A DNA stretch of 57,476 nucleotides from Ignisphaera cupida (lineage in GTDB: Archaea; Thermoproteota; Thermoprotei_A; Sulfolobales; Ignisphaeraceae). Each line of letters opens with the position of its first letter. The stretch's first letter is position 1. Under the pieces are notes generated by a model, which ran no database searches, was not told the DNA's origin, and saw only the letters and a program-made list of their open reading frames with translations. Made by a program: the position numbers and the translations under genes. Where the stretch lies: contig NZ_JASNVW010000007.1 of assembly GCF_030186535.1 (NCBI RefSeq), positions 1-57,476 of the forward strand, written 5' to 3'. Below are positions 9,204-35,268 of the stretch, piece after piece.

Positions 9204-10096
9204 CTAGATTTTCTTAACCTTTAGAATGTAGTGATATGCTGAATTTGCTGCTATAGCCCCTTCAGCCACTGCAACAACTATTTGTTCAAATCTCACTTTG
9301 TGTGGTCTGCCAGCAACATCACCTGCTGCAAAAACTCCTGGCAGGTTTGTGCTCACATCTGGTTTCACAGCTATGTACCCATTTTCATCAAGTTCTAAAC
9401 CAATTTTCTTTAACAATTCTACAGGTGGTTGAGATTCAATTTCTATGAAAATCCCGTCAACGTTGATAATTCTCTCCTCCCCTGTGTTAACATTTTTAAT
9501 TTTTATTGCCTCTACCTTGCTGCTTCCAATGATCTTGGTAACAACTGTGTTTAGAATTGGTTCAATTTTTGGATTATTCAAAACCTTCTCTACGTAAATT
9601 AGAAATGCTTTAAAACATTTCTTCTGTGAATAACATAGACTTTTCTAGCAAAGGAGGTTAGGTGAAGAGCACTACCCAAAGCTGAGTCTCCTCCACCAAC
9701 AACTCTATCTCTAAAGAAAGGAGCATCGCAAACAGCACAATAGGAAACACCTCTTCCAATCAACCTATCCTCGCCAGGAACACCAAGCTTCCTCTTCTCA
9801 CATCCAATAGCAATTACAACAGCATAACCACAAAAAACATCGCCATTAACAGTCTCAACACATCAAAGATCATTGCTTCTCCTTAGATTCTCCATAGGAT
9901 TGCCAACAACTATTTCAACACCATATTTTCTAACATGTTTTTCAAAGAGATTGACAAGTTCATTACCAGGAACATCAGGAATGCCAGGATGGTCATCAAC
10001 AAGAGGAGCAACAGCCATTTTACCTCCAAGATCCTTTGTAACAATAATGGTCTTTAAATCAAATCTAGCCAAGTAAATAGCTGCTGTTAAACCAGC
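9204..10096 (-). pseudogene. trxB: Broken thioredoxin reductase (FAD/NAD pyridine nucleotide-disulfide oxidoreductase)
   Basis: Pieces of one TrxB-like flavoprotein lie in order. The N-terminal FAD site survives only as AGLTAAIYLARFD (from about 10096), with the GAGP part missing. A TGA stop follows ENLRRSNDL near 9863. The next segment has the redox motif YCAVCDAPFF and a GGGDSALG NAD site. A one-base frame change follows in HRRNVLKHF / KCFKAFLIYVEKVL near 9615. The last third (9204-9581) is intact with GVFAAGDVAG. Three separate lesions make this a pseudogene unless the sequence is poor here. Homologues are about 310-330 residues and reduce thioredoxin or a glutaredoxin-like partner. Confidence 0.85.
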
Positions 10097-10877: not shown

Positions 10878-11534
10878 TTGGATTCTCGAAGCAATGTTTT
10901 AAATAAGATGTATAGTGGTATTGTGAATCTTGAGTCTGTTAAACAATATTGTGAAGAAGCCATTGGGTTTGGTGTAAATATTCAGGATGTTATTGGTGTT
11001 GTGACAAAAGCTCTTGAAGTTGTTGGTAAGAAGTATGAGGAGGGTGAGTACTTCTTGTCTGAACTTATAATGGCTGGTGAAATTGTTAAGGAGTGTTTTG
11101 AAGTGTTTGAATTGCATATACCTAGTAGCCAACGCCAGTTTATTGGTAGAATTGTTGTTGGAACTGTTGAGGGGGATCTTCATGATATTGGCAAAAATCT
11201 TTTCATAATGTTTTCAAAGTCTATGGGTTTTGAGGTTATTGATCTTGGTGTTGATGTACCTCCACAAAAATTTGTTGATGCAATAAAGCAGTACAACCCA
11301 GACATAGTTGCAATGTCAGCACTTATAACAACTGCGCTATCATCAATTGAGAAAACTATGAAGGCTCTTAAAGAGCATGGTCTTAGAGACAAGGTTAAGG
11401 TGATTATTGGTGGTGCTGCTGTATCGAAAGAGTTTGTAGAAAGTGTTGGTGCTGATGCTGGTGGTGTAGACGCATTTGAAGGTGCTCTCATATGTAGAAA
11501 GTGGGTTGAGGAAAAAGCAAAACAGAATAGATGA
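10878..11534 (+). CDS. Corrinoid protein of a methyltransferase system (copy 1)
   Basis: A 218-residue B12-binding protein like MtbC/MttC/MtaC. Residues 1-85 form the four-helix cap (EVVGKKYEEGEYFLSELIMAGE) and residues 88-218 the Rossmann B12 domain, with DLHDIGKN at 100-107 supplying the cobalt-ligating His102, followed by VIDLGVDVPP and the IIGGAAVSKEF loop. Such proteins carry a methyl group on cobalt between a substrate methyltransferase and an acceptor enzyme. The start is TTG. It is followed 14 bases later by a UroD-type methyltransferase gene, its likely partner. A paralogue is at 15283. Confidence 0.92.
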   Translation: MDSRSNVLNKMYSGIVNLESVKQYCEEAIGFGVNIQDVIGVVTKALEVVGKKYEEGEYFLSELIMAGEIVKECFEVFELHIPSSQRQFIGRIVVGTVEGDLHDIGKNLFIMFSKSMGFEVIDLGVDVPPQKFVDAIKQYNPDIVAMSALITTALSSIEKTMKALKEHGLRDKVKVIIGGAAVSKEFVESVGADAGGVDAFEGALICRKWVEEKAKQNR

Positions 11535-11548
11535 TTAGGTGATGGGCT

Positions 11549-12652
11549 ATGCACAAACCTCTTACACATAGAGAGCGTCTTCTAAGGGTTTTCAGTTTTC
11601 AAAGTGTTGATAGAGTACCTAACTACGAGTTTGGGTATTGGAAAGAAACAATAGATAGATGGCATAACGAGGGTCTTCCACAGCACATCAAATCTGATAA
11701 GGATGTTGAGAAATACCTTGGTCTAGAAGGTATTGAGAGTTTAGAGAGCATACCTGTAGTAGTTGGCTTGTGGCCTCCGCCAATAGAATTTGTTTTGAGG
11801 GAGGAAGACGATAAGGAGGTTGTTGCTGATGGGCTTGGAGGAATCTATGTTAGAAAGAAGTATGTTTCTGCAGTACCACACTACATCAGATTCCCAATTA
11901 GAAGTAAAGATGATTGGAAGAAGATTAAAAGGTTTCTCGATTTCGAAACACCTGGTAGAATTTCTCTAAATTGGAGCGATATTGTTGAAAAGTATAGGAA
12001 TAGGGACTACCCATTGAGAATATTTGTTGGTAGCTTAGTTGGGTGGCTAAGAGATTGGATGGGGATAGAGGGCTTGTCAAAAGCTTTTTACAGAGACCCT
12101 GACTGGGTTGAGGAAATGGTTGATACAATAGCTGATCTAGTTGTTAAAATACTAGATGTTGTGTTAAGAGATGTTGTACCTGATATGGCGTGGTTTTGGG
12201 AGGATATAGCCTATAACAAAGGCCCTCTAATCTCCCCCAAGCTCTTCGAAAAATATATTGTGCCAAGATACAAGAGAATAACAAAACTTTTAAACGCCTA
12301 TGGGGTTAAGATAGTTGTTGTTGATTGCGATGGGAATATAGAGCTTCTTGTACCTGGCTGGCTCGATGGCGGGGTAAACTGCATGTTCCCACTTGAGGCA
12401 AGGTATGTAGATCCATATAAACTCAGAAGAGAATATGGCGAAAAGATTCTTCTCATGGGTGGTGTAGACAAAATGGCTTTGATAGCAGGTGAAAAAGCTA
12501 TTGATAAAGAACTTGAGAGACTAACTCCACTGCTTGAGGAAGGTGGATACATACCAACAGTAGATCATAGAGTACCTCCAGAGGTTTCATACAAAAACTA
12601 CCTGTACTACATAGAGAGAAAAAGAGAGTGGCTGGAAAAGCACCATCCATAA
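11549..12652 (+). CDS. UroD-family methyltransferase (MtaA/CmuA-like), copy 1
   Basis: A 367-residue protein of the uroporphyrinogen-decarboxylase superfamily. It starts LTHRERLLRVFSFQSVDRVPNYE, as these proteins do, and has MAWFWEDIAYNKGPLISP and, later, LMGGVDKMAL with the C-terminal YIPTVDHRVPPEVSYKNY. In corrinoid systems such proteins move methyl groups between a substrate or coenzyme and the corrinoid protein, using a zinc site. It directly follows corrinoid protein copy 1, so methyl transfer is far likelier than haem synthesis. The methyl donor is unknown. It is intact, unlike the copy at 14005. Confidence 0.88.
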   Translation: MHKPLTHRERLLRVFSFQSVDRVPNYEFGYWKETIDRWHNEGLPQHIKSDKDVEKYLGLEGIESLESIPVVVGLWPPPIEFVLREEDDKEVVADGLGGIYVRKKYVSAVPHYIRFPIRSKDDWKKIKRFLDFETPGRISLNWSDIVEKYRNRDYPLRIFVGSLVGWLRDWMGIEGLSKAFYRDPDWVEEMVDTIADLVVKILDVVLRDVVPDMAWFWEDIAYNKGPLISPKLFEKYIVPRYKRITKLLNAYGVKIVVVDCDGNIELLVPGWLDGGVNCMFPLEARYVDPYKLRREYGEKILLMGGVDKMALIAGEKAIDKELERLTPLLEEGGYIPTVDHRVPPEVSYKNYLYYIERKREWLEKHHP

Positions 12653-12821: not shown

Positions 12822-13022
12822 TTGATAAGAAATCCTCTGTGATCCGCTATGCGGTGAGAGGGGGTGAGAGAGTAAGAGTTGCAGATGGGAGCCTTGTGGC
12901 GTTGGGCTCGACAGGGTCCCATGAGGCTTGGGTGAAGCTGGTGAACCCAAGCCTAGGGCCAACCCCACCCACGGAGTTAAAAGTGATTGAAACCAATTAA
13001 AAGTACCGTGAGTGGGGAAACG
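12822..13022 (+). ncRNA. Candidate structured RNA with a kink-turn
   Basis: A GC-rich island in AT-rich DNA with no plausible coding frame. Stems seen directly are: CCTC (12834-12837) with GAGG (12858-12861), enclosing bulge TGT, tandem G.A pairs and CCGC/GCGG, which fits a kink-turn of the kind bound by L7Ae; ATGGGA with TCCCAT (12885-12922); the perfect 9-base GGCTTGGGT with ACCCAAGCC (12925-12953); and CCCCACCCACGG (12963-12974) with CCGTGAGTGGGG (13005-13016), 12 pairs with one G.U. A TATA box lies upstream. I see none of the universal motifs of RNase P RNA or SRP RNA, nor a tRNA. The ends are approximate and the class is unknown. Confidence 0.55.
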
Positions 13023-13097
13023 CTAGTATTAGAATAGCTGGGAATAGCTGGTAGAAGTGTTAAAGCAGAAAAAGCTTTGACTTGAGTGATGCTTTTA

Positions 13098-13502
13098 ATG
13101 AGTTTTGATAGGTATAGGGATTGGTTTGAAGAAGCTATTGATGATTTTGAAGCTGCTCAGATACTGCTTGAAATGGGTAAGTGGAGCAAAGCTTGTTTCT
13201 TTTCTCATCAAGCTGTTGAAAAAGCTTTGAAGGCCCTTTTAATCAAAAAACTTGGTGTTTATAGACATACCCACAGCGTTGCTGCTCTCATAAACGAAAT
13301 CTCATCTAGAATAGCTCTGCCCAGCGATCTTGCGAAGTTGGCTAGCAAACTTGATAGATACTACATACCCACGAGATATCCAAGTGCATGGCCATCTCTA
13401 CCTCCACACAAGCACTATTCAAGAAGTGATGCTGAGGAAGCTGTTAGAATTGCTTATGAGGTGATAAACTTTGTTAAGAGAACCATTGAGACAGATTCTT
13501 AG
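13098..13502 (+). CDS. HEPN-domain protein (toxin of a HEPN/MNT pair)
   Basis: A 134-residue helical HEPN protein. FSHQAVEKALKALLIKK is the second-helix signature and YIPTRYPSAWPSLPPH is the conserved loop of the COG2250-type HEPN group, in which Arg and nearby polar residues form the putative RNase site. In known pairs the HEPN protein is the toxin and the nucleotidyltransferase blocks it by adding AMP to a conserved Tyr; here Y in DRYYIPTRY is a candidate. The frame opens at GTG 13086 and ATG 13089, but ATG 13098 (MSFDRYRDW) fits the family start best. It overlaps the MNT gene by 32 bases. Confidence 0.88.
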   Translation: MSFDRYRDWFEEAIDDFEAAQILLEMGKWSKACFFSHQAVEKALKALLIKKLGVYRHTHSVAALINEISSRIALPSDLAKLASKLDRYYIPTRYPSAWPSLPPHKHYSRSDAEEAVRIAYEVINFVKRTIETDS

Positions 13503-13821
13503 CAAAGAAAATGTTAGAGATTTGACTGAGGAGCTAACCCAGCTACTTGAAAACATTGCAAAAACATATAAACCACTAAAGATAGTAATAACAGGATCTC
13601 TAGCTGAGGACAAGTTTGTGAGAGGGTTAAGCGATATAGATGTTCTTGTAGTAGTCAAGGAAATGAGAGAGAATATGGAGAGATTTCTCATGCACTCAAT
13701 AAAAGATGTTGATGTGGAAATAACAATAGTTTCGGAAAAAGAACTTGAAGAAGCTATTAAGAGAGGCAATGAATTCTATATACAAGCAATTGAAAAAGGC
13801 ATAGTTGTTTACACCTCCTAA
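13471..13821 (+). CDS. MNT-type minimal nucleotidyltransferase (antitoxin)
   Basis: A 116-residue DNA polymerase beta-superfamily nucleotidyltransferase. IVITGSLAEDKFVRGLSDIDVLVVV holds the GS...D-x-D motif near residues 41-58, and the third acidic residue is in DVEITIV. It overlaps the HEPN gene, the classic layout of a HEPN/MNT toxin-antitoxin module, and would act as the antitoxin. The start is TTG. The pair sits between the two corrinoid/UroD units. Confidence 0.88.
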   Translation: MLREPLRQILSKENVRDLTEELTQLLENIAKTYKPLKIVITGSLAEDKFVRGLSDIDVLVVVKEMRENMERFLMHSIKDVDVEITIVSEKELEEAIKRGNEFYIQAIEKGIVVYTS

Positions 13822-14004: not shown

Positions 14005-15270
14005 TTGATTCCACGTGAAAGAGTTGTTTTAGCTTTGAAGCATGAGGAGCCTGATAGAGTGCCAATAGACTTTGGTGCTACGCTCACTACCGGTGTTCAT
14101 GTATGTGTATATAACGAGTTGAGAAAGACTTTGAATTTATTTGTTAAACCTATTAAAGTAATTGATTTTGGTCAACAATTAGCTGAAGTTGAAGCAGAAA
14201 TTTTGAGGCTTTTCCAAGTTGATGTAATTAATATTAATAGAGTTCTTGATCCTTGTGCCCCTATAGAAATACCTTTTTTCAAGTAGAAGAAGTGGGTTCA
14301 TAGATGTGGTTTTGAAGTTGAAATACCGGATAAAATAAACATTGTTGAGGAGGAGAATAGGTATGTTGCATACTGGAATGGAAATGTCATAGGGTTTATG
14401 CCTAAGAAGGGATATTATTTTGAGGGTTTTAACAGAGTTAAACCCCCGCTTGGCGATATAAATAGTGTTAGCGATGTTAAAAACTATGATTGGAGCAGTG
14501 CCAAAATCTCTACAGAGCATCTGGAGTTTCTTAAAAAGCGTGCTGAGTGGCTATACAAAAACACGGATTACGCTCTACTATTCTTCTCAGGATATGCATA
14601 TTTGGGAGGATGCGCAATGGGTTTTCATGAGTGGGGTCAGGGGCTTAGGGGCTGGGCAAAGTGGTTAGCAGATCTAAGAGTCAGAAAGCCATTAGCCGAG
14701 GCAATACTGGATCAAATGATGGAGATTCTCAAATACAATGTAGAGAACATTGTTTCTACACTAAAAGACTATGTTCAAGTTATTGCTTTTGGTGATGATT
14801 TTGGTACTGAGGAGGGTCCTCAAATTAGTGTTGAAATTTTTAGAGAGTTTTATAAGCATAGATTTGAAGAGTTGTTTAGTATTGTTAAGAGAAGAAGTAA
14901 AATGTTTATATATTTCCATAGCTGCGGCTCTATATACCCAATAATTAAAGAGCTTATTGATGCTGGTATAGATGCTATTAACCCTGTTCAAATATCTGCT
15001 AAGGGTATGGACCCTGAGAAGCTTAAGAGGGATTATGGTGAGCAAGTAACATTCTGGGGTGGTGGCGCGGATACCCAACATGTTTTACCATTTGCAAAAC
15101 CTGATGAGGTTGTTGAGCATGTTAAGAAGTTGATCAAGATATTTGCTCCTGGCGGTGGATTCGTTTTTGCATCAGTACACAATATTCAGCCACCAACACC
15201 ACCAGAAAACATTGTTGCAATGTTTGAAACAGCTTATAAATATGGTAAATACCCAATAAGAGCTAGCTAA
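14005..15270 (+). pseudogene. UroD-family methyltransferase copy 2 with in-frame TAG
   Basis: One 421-codon frame of the UroD/MtaA superfamily, interrupted only by a TAG at 14284-14286 (PFFK-stop-KKWVHRCGFEVEIP). Before the stop is IPRERVVLALKHEEPDRVPIDFG, the family start. After it come FMPKKGYYFEG, VIAFGDDFGTEEGPQIS, FIYFHSCGSIYPIIKEL and the C-terminal FWGGGADTQHVLP, all well conserved. The frame on both sides is unchanged and there is no other lesion. It could be a fresh nonsense mutation, a sequencing error, or read-through. Pyrrolysine is possible in principle for UAG in methyltransferase systems, but TAG is an ordinary stop for many genes here. Corrinoid copy 2 follows at once. Confidence 0.8.
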
Positions 15271-15282
15271 AGGTAATTGAAG

Positions 15283-15972
15283 ATGAGCAACGTTTTGAAT
15301 TCTATTGTTGATTCCCTAGCCAATTTAGATATGGATAACATTATAAAATTTGTTAAAGAAGCTATTGAAAAATTTGATGTTAGAAGTGTTATAGATGCTC
15401 TTGCAGAGGGTATGAGAGTTGTTGGTGAAAAGTATGAAAGGGGTGAGTACTTTGTTTCGGATTTGATAGTATCTGCAGAAATATTTAATGAGGCTATGAA
15501 TATTGTTAAGCCAAAGATTTTAGAGCTTAGAAAAGAGGTTAAGCCTATTGGAAGAGTTGTTATAGGTACTGTCTATGGAGATATTCACGACATTGGAAAG
15601 AATCTTGTGAAAACATTTTTAGAGGCAAACGGTTTTGAGGTTATTGATCTTGAAGTAGATGTTCCAGTTGAGAAATTTGTTGAAGCTGTTAAGCAGTACA
15701 ACCCAGATATTGTTGGTATGAGTGCTTTACTAACATCAACAATGATTCACATGAAAGATGTTATAGATGCTCTCAAGAAAGAGGGTTTGAGAGACAAGGT
15801 GAAGATTATTGTTGGTGGAGCACCAATAACAGAGGAATTTGCAAAATCAATTGGAGCAGATGCATATGGTGAAAACGCATATAAAGCAGTGGAAATATGC
15901 AAGAAACTAGTGGAGGAGCTTAGGAAAACATGTAATACCTCGTTATACCCATGCCCTCTTTCAATCCAATAA
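15283..15972 (+). CDS. Corrinoid protein of a methyltransferase system (copy 2)
   Basis: A 229-residue paralogue of the corrinoid protein at 10878, with the same helical cap (GMRVVGEKYERGEYFVSDLI) and B12 domain. DIHDIGKN supplies the cobalt-binding His, followed by EVIDLEVDVPVEKFVEAVKQYNPDIVGMSALLTS and IIVGGAPIT. It starts 12 bases after the UroD copy 2 stop, with ATG at 15283 preferred over TTG at 15277. It should accept methyl groups from the UroD partner, if that is made. It is intact, which argues that the unit is or was recently in use. Confidence 0.92.
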   Translation: MSNVLNSIVDSLANLDMDNIIKFVKEAIEKFDVRSVIDALAEGMRVVGEKYERGEYFVSDLIVSAEIFNEAMNIVKPKILELRKEVKPIGRVVIGTVYGDIHDIGKNLVKTFLEANGFEVIDLEVDVPVEKFVEAVKQYNPDIVGMSALLTSTMIHMKDVIDALKKEGLRDKVKIIVGGAPITEEFAKSIGADAYGENAYKAVEICKKLVEELRKTCNTSLYPCPLSIQ

Positions 15973-26673: not shown

Positions 26674-29055
26674 TTGCCCCTCTGTGTTTATGCCATTAAC
26701 AGGGAGTTTGCTAAGCTTGGTTGTGTAGAGGAATTCAAATTTGATTTATCTACTGGCGAGGCTATAATTGTTTACAATGATTCTATTTGCGGTTTAAACG
26801 ATGTTTATAGAGGGGTTAGAAACGCTGGATACGATGTTGTTAAAGAAGTTGCTGTTTTTGTTGTTGAAGATCTTGACACAGGACTTGCTAGCTATATTGA
26901 GAAAAGGCTTTGCAAAACCACTGGAATTTTTGACTGCATATCATCTATATCAACATCAACTGTAAAAGTTGTTTACAACCCATACACACTAAGCTCTTCA
27001 GATGTTGAAAAGATTTTTTCTGGTCTTGGAGTTGGGTTTAGAAAGCTATTGGAAGAGTCTATTGCTAGAGGCAAAGCATTTGAGAAAAGCTCTTTGCTGA
27101 GAAGAGTTCTATCCTTCTCTATAGGAGTAGCAGTGGTTTCCATAGCAATAGCCTCTATGCTTATGAATATTCACATTAGCTACAACTATGTTTACTACCT
27201 TGCAATAGCATCTTCAGTTGTTATTGCCTTGAACTATGATATTTTGCGTAGAGGCTTTGCGGCATTGGCAAGGCTTTCACCAACCATGGACTCTCTAGTT
27301 TCTTTATCAACAACAATATCATTTTTATTTGGATTAGCATCTCTACTTGGGGTTGCACCCAAAGGCAGTGGCCTTTCCACAGAATCGTTTTTCGAGGCTT
27401 CTGCAGGTGTTTTGGGTTTTGTTGGTTTTGGTCTTTATCTAGAGGAGAGAATTAGGAGAAGCGCTTGGAGTAGTGTTGAGGATCTTGTGAAAAGACTTTA
27501 TAGCAAAGCAAGAGTTGTTGTTGGTGATAAGGTTGTTGAGGTTGATGCTGAGAAGGTTTCTCCAGAATCCATTGTTGAGATTAGAGCTGGTGAGATTATT
27601 CCTGTCGATGGTGTTGTTGTTGATGGTGATGGCTATGTTGATGAATCTAGTTTTACAGGAGAACCACTACCTGTACACAAATCAGCTAAGACCAGAGACC
27701 CTGTTTTGGCTGGCACAATACTTGTTTCTGGCTATTTAAGAGTTAGAGCAACTAGGGTTGGTAGAGAAACAATGCTTTATAGAATTATTGAAACAATTAG
27801 AGAAGCCCAGTTCTACAAGCCCAAGGCTCTTAGAGTTGCTGACAAGTTTGTTGGTGTTTTCACATGGCTTGTTATCGCTCTTGGCATATCCGTTCTTCTA
27901 TACTGGGGTATCATTGTAAGTGATTTCGCCAAGGCAATAATGTTTACAGCAACAGTTTTTGCAACTGCATGCCCATGTGCAATAGGAATTGCAGTTCCAA
28001 TGGCTGTTTCAATTGCTGTTGTTGCTGCATCTAGAAAAGGTGTTGTGATTAGACGTGGAGATGTTTTTGATAGACTACTAGAATCATCTACAATAATCTT
28101 TGATAAAACAGGTACTTTAACTATTGGAAAGCCACATGTTGAAAACATTTGGATTGTGAATAACACTGTTGATGAGAAAACCCTGCTTTTCTACATTTGC
28201 AGTGTTGAGAGTAGAAGTGAACATCCAATAGCAAAAGCAGTTACAGACTTCTGCAAAGATAAAGGTGTTGAGACTGGAGATGTTGAGGAGTTCAACCATT
28301 TTCCAGGTCTTGGAGTTGTTGGCATTATCAACAACTCTACTGTTTCTATTGGGAATATGGAGCTTCTTAAAAGAATGGGTGTTGAGGAGATGGAGAAACT
28401 CGAAAAAATTGATGATATTATAAGCAGCAAGGGGTCTACACCAGTGCTAGTAGCTTTAAACAATTCCCTGGTTGCAGTCATAGAAGTATCTGACAGGCTG
28501 AGGCCAGAGGCGGAGAAGGTGGTTAGATATTTGAAGAGCCTTGGCTATAGAATTGGAATTGCCAGTGGAGATGTTAAGGGCTCTGTGGAGAGATATGCCA
28601 AGGCTCTTCAACTAGATTTTTACCGCTATGAGCTGAAGCCACTTGAGAAAACGGAGCTTGTTAAAGAGATTCAATCAAAAGGTGAGAAGATTCTTTATGT
28701 TGGTGATGGAGTAAACGATGCAGCAACAATATCTGTGGCTCATGTTGGTGTTGCTATGGGTGGTGGAGCAGATGTTTCTAAGGAAGCAGGAGATGTTGTA
28801 TTGACAAGCAATAAATTATCTGATCTAGTTTTCATTATAGAGCTTAGCAAAAAAGTTAGGAGAAAATTCTTAGAAAATATTGCATGGGCATTTATATACA
28901 ACATAGCATTACTGCCAATAGCAGCAGGAGTTTTTTACAGCCATGGAGTGTTCATGAGACCAGAAATGGGTGCAGCAGCAATGATTTTAAGTGATGTGAG
29001 TGTTGTGCTAAATTCGCTAAGATTATTGAAACAAAGCACTTCTAGCTCCATTTGA
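26674..29055 (+). CDS. copA: Copper-exporting P-type ATPase (P1B), N-terminal domain damaged
   Basis: 793 residues from TTG at 26674, a P1B-type ATPase. In order: a damaged heavy-metal-associated domain and a second weaker one (1-120), membrane helices, the TGEPLPV actuator motif, TACPCAIGIAVP with the metal-binding CPC, FDKTGTLT with the phosphorylated Asp, RSEHPIA (HP motif) and GDGVNDAATISVA. The C-terminal helix has MILSDVSVVLNSLRLL. The upstream frame from TTG 26639 reads KLVGVDCPS and would continue to CVYAIN only if one more base were present in CCCCTCTGTG, so the first CxxC is split by a one-base shift. The ATPase body is intact. It forms an operon with the YHS gene. Confidence 0.9.
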   Translation: MPLCVYAINREFAKLGCVEEFKFDLSTGEAIIVYNDSICGLNDVYRGVRNAGYDVVKEVAVFVVEDLDTGLASYIEKRLCKTTGIFDCISSISTSTVKVVYNPYTLSSSDVEKIFSGLGVGFRKLLEESIARGKAFEKSSLLRRVLSFSIGVAVVSIAIASMLMNIHISYNYVYYLAIASSVVIALNYDILRRGFAALARLSPTMDSLVSLSTTISFLFGLASLLGVAPKGSGLSTESFFEASAGVLGFVGFGLYLEERIRRSAWSSVEDLVKRLYSKARVVVGDKVVEVDAEKVSPESIVEIRAGEIIPVDGVVVDGDGYVDESSFTGEPLPVHKSAKTRDPVLAGTILVSGYLRVRATRVGRETMLYRIIETIREAQFYKPKALRVADKFVGVFTWLVIALGISVLLYWGIIVSDFAKAIMFTATVFATACPCAIGIAVPMAVSIAVVAASRKGVVIRRGDVFDRLLESSTIIFDKTGTLTIGKPHVENIWIVNNTVDEKTLLFYICSVESRSEHPIAKAVTDFCKDKGVETGDVEEFNHFPGLGVVGIINNSTVSIGNMELLKRMGVEEMEKLEKIDDIISSKGSTPVLVALNNSLVAVIEVSDRLRPEAEKVVRYLKSLGYRIGIASGDVKGSVERYAKALQLDFYRYELKPLEKTELVKEIQSKGEKILYVGDGVNDAATISVAHVGVAMGGGADVSKEAGDVVLTSNKLSDLVFIIELSKKVRRKFLENIAWAFIYNIALLPIAAGVFYSHGVFMRPEMGAAAMILSDVSVVLNSLRLLKQSTSSSI

Positions 29056-34800: not shown

Positions 34801-35268
34801 ATGCTAATAAAATGTGATGCAAAAATGAAGCCTCTTATGGCATATGTTTACAGACCTGATGATGAACAAGATAAAATAGTTGATTTTGTTTCAAATTCCC
34901 AGCTTCCAGACTCAATAAAAATTGTTTTGCTATATACATATTTTGAGAAAATTGCTGCTGATGTAATCATAGCTTCTGGTGAGAGAAAGTTAAAAAGGGT
35001 TTTGTGCAAAATATCCTCGAAGAAGAGAATAAACAGAGCATTGGCTATACTTAGAAAAGAGGGTTTTCTTAACGAAGAAGAGTATAGAAGTATTAGAAGA
35101 ACAGCTAGAGTTCTTCGATGCTTAAGAAACTCTTTTCTTCACAGAGTATGTGAATCCTCGTGTCCATCGATAAACATTGAAAATGCAATTGAAGTATCAA
35201 AGATTTTTGCTTTAAAAGCTAGAGGATATGTTGGGAAAATACTTAGCAGTTGGAGTGTTGAAGATTAG
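34801..35268 (+). CDS. Small helical protein with an R-x4-H motif, HEPN-like
   Basis: About 155 residues, predicted mostly helical. KIVLLYTYFEKIAADVIIASGE forms an early helix and LRCLRNSFLHRVCES carries R-x4-H, the HEPN RNase signature. I do not recognise the exact family. No antitoxin gene is seen beside it. A TATATAG element at 34780 suggests a start near 34805, so ATG 34801 or 34825 could be used. The next gene (TtuA-like) has its own TATA-like element. Confidence 0.45.
   Translation: MLIKCDAKMKPLMAYVYRPDDEQDKIVDFVSNSQLPDSIKIVLLYTYFEKIAADVIIASGERKLKRVLCKISSKKRINRALAILRKEGFLNEEEYRSIRRTARVLRCLRNSFLHRVCESSCPSINIENAIEVSKIFALKARGYVGKILSSWSVED

Follow-up and report, generated by a model that had tools for sequence, protein, structure and literature searches.

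An in-frame TAG in a UroD-superfamily methyltransferase gene of the hot-spring archaeon Ignisphaera cupida: most likely a gene that was disrupted recently, rather than a novel reading of the code

Introduction

In several methyltransferases I of the UroD superfamily, among them MtoB, MtvB and CdmB, the methyl group of an aromatic ether or a haloalkane is transferred to a corrinoid protein; in the Mto system its further transfer to a pterin is carried out by a protein of the MtrH family (PMC8630106, PMC8359953, PMC13222342). The published Mto and Cdm systems are made up of parts comparable to those found in the genome of Ignisphaera cupida (PMC8630106, PMC13222342). A second group of corrinoid-dependent methyltransferases depends on pyrrolysine. 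Among archaea this residue is described from methanogens, from certain Archaeoglobus subgroups and from a 'Terrestrial Miscellaneous Crenarchaeota group' (PMC9499178).

The gene described here is located on a contig of I. cupida (NZ_JASNVW010000007.1 of assembly GCF_030186535.1), and the whole stretch of 57,476 nucleotides which was analysed is called the window in the following. Like MtoB, MtvB, OdmB, VdmB and CdmB, its product belongs to the UroD superfamily, the gene adjoins one for a corrinoid protein, and an MtrH-family protein is encoded in the genome. In contrast to the MtoB-type enzymes the MtrH-family protein is found on another contig and the gene carries an in-frame TAG; the comparison with MtoB is one of family and neighbours and not of sequence. 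The closest named protein both in sequence and in structure is MtaA (methylcobalamin:coenzyme M methyltransferase; 4ay7/4ay8, Methanosarcina mazei), but the I. cupida protein scores far below the cut-offs of the MtaA models.

The pyrrolysine-using methyltransferases are those of the MtmB, MtbB and MttB families, which represent a protein family different from UroD. With these enzymes the I. cupida gene shares the in-frame TAG and the corrinoid partner, whereas it differs from them in protein family, in having no pyl genes over cut-off in its genome, and in the sense codons found in all relatives which have a residue at this position. With ordinary nonsense pseudogenes of archaea it has in common that the conservation of the gene is interrupted by a single premature stop and that intact paralogues are present; here only one clear lesion is present, which means that the stop is either very young or not real.

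The interrupted gene and its neighbourhood

The gene is found at positions 14005–15270 of the plus strand and encodes a UroD-superfamily corrinoid methyltransferase of MtaA/MtoB-like type. It starts with TTG at 14005 and comprises 421 codons before the terminal TAA, with the TAG at 14284–14286 as its sole internal stop. Standard translation leaves a frame of 93 codons (14005–14286, plus strand) which lacks the catalytic barrel. Downstream of the TAG 327 codons are open, and the longest open reading frame with a start codon in this part begins with ATG at 14398 and runs to 15270 on the plus strand (290 amino acids). Over its entire length the frame can be aligned with intact copies (57–67% identity), so that translation and alignment both agree with the preliminary description of this DNA, in which the gene was considered intact except for one TAG and conserved on both sides of it. 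An open frame of 327 codons retaining such homology after the stop would not be expected by chance.

When the TAG is read through, the protein matches the URO-D profile (PF01208) with 74.7 bits, compared to a Pfam cut-off of 23.9, and this score over the gathering threshold together with the UroD/MtaA fold of an orthologue's model places it in the UroD superfamily. It is not an MtaA equivalog by the NCBIfam cut-offs, as it reaches 31 bits versus 400 and 41 versus 244. The structural model was calculated not for the interrupted copy but for the orthologue from genome G112, with an alignment of 11 sequences, and has a mean pLDDT of 77.3 and a pTM of 0.83. Among solved structures its fold is closest to those of MtaA (4ay8, 4ay7) and UroD, with 4ay8 and UroD structures ranking first; when solved structures were searched with a profile from alignment A1, no match was obtained. 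The column of the TAG corresponds to residue 108 of the model, the first residue of strand 108–112, which sits in an accessory beta-rich insertion comprising about residues 91–147. In this orthologue residue 313 is the first of the H-x-C motif, about 205 residues after the TAG column.

An intact gene for a two-domain corrinoid (B12-binding) protein adjoins the interrupted gene (15277–15972, plus strand), as is characteristic of a corrinoid methyltransferase I of the Mto/Cdm type, and the same gene pair is present in a related locus (L038, 7548–9551). Compared to TIGR02370, the corrinoid protein family of the pyl system, this corrinoid protein scores 200 bits, which is under the cut-off of 215. 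Further upstream a second intact corrinoid protein gene (10878–11534, plus strand) is paired with an intact UroD-superfamily paralogue (11549–12652, plus strand) which shows about 26% identity where the two could be matched; that the paralogue at 11549 is intact had been noted before and is borne out by a Pfam profile search. Between both units lies a HEPN and nucleotidyltransferase gene pair (13086–13821) resembling a toxin-antitoxin system. A G+C-rich segment at 12840–13000, the translation of which is faintly similar to the C-terminal end of a TnpB-like protein at locus L094 (15 residues, 60% identical, E 0.55), lies between the two methyltransferase units as well and may be what is left of a transposon. 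A search for plasmids gave no match.

About 4 kb upstream of the interrupted gene a thioredoxin-reductase-like pseudogene with several lesions is found (9204–10096, minus strand), which contains a TGA at 9865–9863 and a frame change near 9602; its N-terminal end is also disturbed. Because of these multiple lesions it can be stated that gene decay occurs in this neighbourhood.

The position of the TAG in related genes

Matches to the protein were found in 19 of 214 genomes of the order. A scan of genome contigs for the same species yielded five loci, none of which was recognised as belonging to it, from a collection which may omit near-identical records. The alignment was restricted to the 14 long matches with more than 50% identity, which come from 10 genomes including that of I. 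cupida; paralogues at a greater distance and a fragment of 83 residues from the edge of a contig (L017, genome G074) were not included. Among the 13 other aligned copies the TAG column is occupied by tryptophan (TGG) in eight and by phenylalanine (TTC) in four, with a gap in the remaining one, and is aromatic in all 12 copies which have a residue there. Neither a stop nor a lysine occurs at this column in any of the 13. Conservation of the TAG across orthologues, as it would be required for pyrrolysine, was seen in 0 of 13 copies, and the premature stop is located where the orthologues have sense codons, as in a nonsense pseudogene. From the two codons which had been suggested as the source of a nonsense mutation, TGG and AAG, the first is supported by its presence in eight of 13 copies and its distance of one base from TAG, while AAG dropped out with 0 of 13. 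Location of the TAG in a freely variable loop was also considered and had to be rejected, since all 12 copies with a residue at this column have an aromatic one and only the stretch preceding it varies in length among the copies; 93 residues precede the TAG column in the interrupted gene compared to 107 in the G112 orthologue, the interrupted copy being 14 residues shorter just upstream of the TAG.

Several stops inside the matches of relatives proved to be terminal stops. Besides the gene in the window, true internal stops among the aligned copies are confined to two paralogues from G128, a distant relative of the same order. Both contain the same TAA in frame at a conserved glutamine (L010, 2572–2574; L026, 2569–2571), with 120 of 120 bases around it identical in genes which are 79.5% identical over the whole match. 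The shared TAA would be accounted for either by gene conversion involving a broken copy or by an artefact of the assembly. Premature stops thus do occur elsewhere in the family of UroD-type enzymes, here in a genome of an order without PylS. The alignment also revealed that the H-x-C motif is H-S-D in six copies (G109, G114b, G115, G116, G117, and G128a), while the remaining eight have H-S-C or H-C-C, which may reflect a change of a metal ligand among close relatives.

A recent nonsense mutation as the best explanation

The observations are best explained if one of several genes for paralogous methyltransferases has recently acquired a nonsense mutation, which is an ordinary event, and this explanation is considered probable. 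The intact gene is predicted to have encoded a methyltransferase I of the UroD superfamily which transferred a methyl group from its substrate to the corrinoid protein encoded directly downstream. A recent point change would have converted a codon for tryptophan, or for another aromatic residue, to TAG. Translation would then stop after residue 93, ahead of nearly all of the catalytic barrel, and the enzyme would be lost, but not its intact paralogues or either of the corrinoid proteins. Because the genome keeps several paralogues of the UroD family, loss of one methyltransferase copy should be tolerable, and decay is preferred since the pseudogene at 9204–10096 shows that genes are being lost nearby. 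We infer three elements of this explanation, namely a real TAG in the organism, the absence of a full-length product, and a loss which is recent or limited to a strain. Two points have to be held against decay. The frame is otherwise fully conserved, which read-through would predict as well, and there is one clear lesion only, in addition to the shortness of 14 residues relative to the G112 orthologue in a stretch of variable length.

The age of the stop can be estimated from the sequence behind it. At post-stop sites which are invariant in the 11 other full-length copies the interrupted gene differs at 4 of 99 (Y-W, Y-F, F-L, K-R), all four changes being conservative. The respective leave-one-out values for the 11 other copies range from 0/95 to 8/103, two truncated copies from G118 being omitted from these counts. 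In an old pseudogene, though not in a very recent one, constraint should be relaxed behind the stop, and this was not observed. As the loss of conserved sites is within the range of the intact copies, the TAG represents a very young stop, an error in the sequence or a stop which is bypassed, and the constraint test fits these three alike. In a neutral simulation of the post-stop codons, four or fewer changes without a further stop were obtained in 34% of the runs at 0.02 changes per site, in 3.9% at 0.04 and in 0.05% at 0.06. Very young is to be understood on the scale which separates the known relatives, and if the gene is a pseudogene only a very recent event would fit.

Alternative explanations

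Second in rank after the recent nonsense mutation is an error of sequencing or assembly, or a variant of a minority strain which entered the consensus, with an intact gene in the true population. This is possible, although rather unlikely. It would account for flanks behind the stop which are no less conserved than those of intact genes and for a TAG one base away from TGG, the commonest codon of the relatives, and it is compatible with a genome of 1,743,696 bases in 14 contigs in which the TAG is known from the assembly consensus and not from reads. On the other hand the multi-lesion pseudogene in the same window means that real decay occurs here, and a completeness of 99.92% with a contamination of 0.29% speaks against a generally poor assembly.

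Much less probable is a partial suppression of the TAG, in which a near-cognate ordinary tRNA would read through the codon and some full-length enzyme would be kept. While the missing excess of changes at conserved sites after the stop is in line with it, no CUA tRNA is among the 42 tRNAs found, general read-through would be costly because TAG is the main terminator (27 of 58 open reading frames), and TAG is present at this site in none of the 13 other copies. A UAG tolerated without pyrrolysine machinery, with enough full-length methyltransferase made by near-cognate suppression at a formerly aromatic residue for selection to keep the downstream frame, is rated slightly lower still. The same low rating applies to a gene split into two assembling polypeptides, one consisting of residues 1–93 and the other restarting at 14398. 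The ATG at this position does open a frame of 290 codons, but behind the TAG it is not preceded by any in-frame ATG, GTG or TTG, so that the two polypeptides would lack the 37 codons which match the beta-rich region of intact copies, and the methionine at 14398 is common to several intact copies and thus no new start.

Pyrrolysine read-through had been proposed in the preliminary description as worth testing, by a search of the genome for pylS, pylBCD and a CUA tRNA and by comparison of the codons of orthologues. None of these genes was found over cut-off, no tRNA with this anticodon was detected, and the orthologues have the sense codons TGG or TTC and in no case TAG, so the proposal is refuted. 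The search for PylS in the genome of I. cupida gave three weak matches, HisRS, LysRS and AspRS, with 19–33 bits versus a cut-off of 178. At E 1e-15 PylS was present in none of the 214 genomes of the order, and the control, Methanosarcina acetivorans, was recovered. PylD over cut-off was likewise found in 0 of 214 genomes, with many weak partial matches of which three are in the I. cupida genome; in this genome PylC gave two weak matches and none over cut-off, and PylB no match over cut-off. The CUA anticodon occurs in 0 of 42 tRNA genes of the genome (tRNA family search, with every anticodon read by ARAGORN with introns allowed), a list which is itself incomplete as tRNA-Ile GAT and tRNA-Ala TGC are absent from it.

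That many genes here end in TAG, as had been remarked earlier, is confirmed by the stop usage of 58 open reading frames in the window (greedy and non-overlapping, at least 100 amino acids), where TAG is the commonest stop with 27, followed by TAA with 21 and TGA with 10. A genome-wide reassignment of TAG is rejected by this usage. Two further candidates for interruption by TAG were dismissed. The one on the plus strand with the stop at 35266 consists of two genes, an open reading frame with no Pfam match and a following TtuA-like gene which has its own N-terminal LIM match, and the pair on the minus strand at 28193 lies inside a 793 amino acid open reading frame of the plus strand (26674–29055).

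Insertion of pyrrolysine at 14284–14286, in favour of which the corrinoid methyltransferase context and the resemblance, below cut-off, of the protein encoded at 15277–15972 to TIGR02370 can be named, has a negligible probability in view of PylS, PylB, PylC and PylD not being over cut-off, no CUA tRNA among the 42 found, tryptophan or phenylalanine at the site in relatives, the large distance in sequence from the H-x-C motif, and a fold family which is UroD and not that of MtmB, MtbB or MttB. As far as the genome sequence allows, this reading may be regarded as excluded.

Likely function and significance

One MtrH-family protein is encoded in the I. cupida genome (G000:C2:203796-204629, L091), with 274 bits to PF02007 and 338 bits to NF002142, the latter being over its cut-off. 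It is a candidate and could be the second methyltransferase. The genus is not known to be methanogenic. Intact copies of relatives at L038 and L039 adjoin genes for sugar or peptide ABC transporters, labels which were read from the sequence and not from a family search. UroD-family genes stand beside ABC transporter genes at these two loci and also at L093 and L094 on contigs C2 and C3 of the I. cupida genome, and at L093 such a gene is found beside GH4-type and alpha-mannosidase-type glycosidase-like genes, again labelled by reading the sequence. Methylated sugars are a possible substrate of the UroD-family enzymes near transporters and glycosidases. Among the matches listed for open papers in PubMed Central on Ignisphaera with corrinoid or uroporphyrinogen methyltransferase, none names Ignisphaera.

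With a recently broken gene as the most likely explanation, a lead which could plausibly have extended the known range of pyrrolysine is closed, in a hyperthermophile genus without any of the parts of the pyrrolysine system which were searched for. The finding also calls for caution in scans which take an internal TAG in a methyltransferase gene to indicate pyrrolysine.
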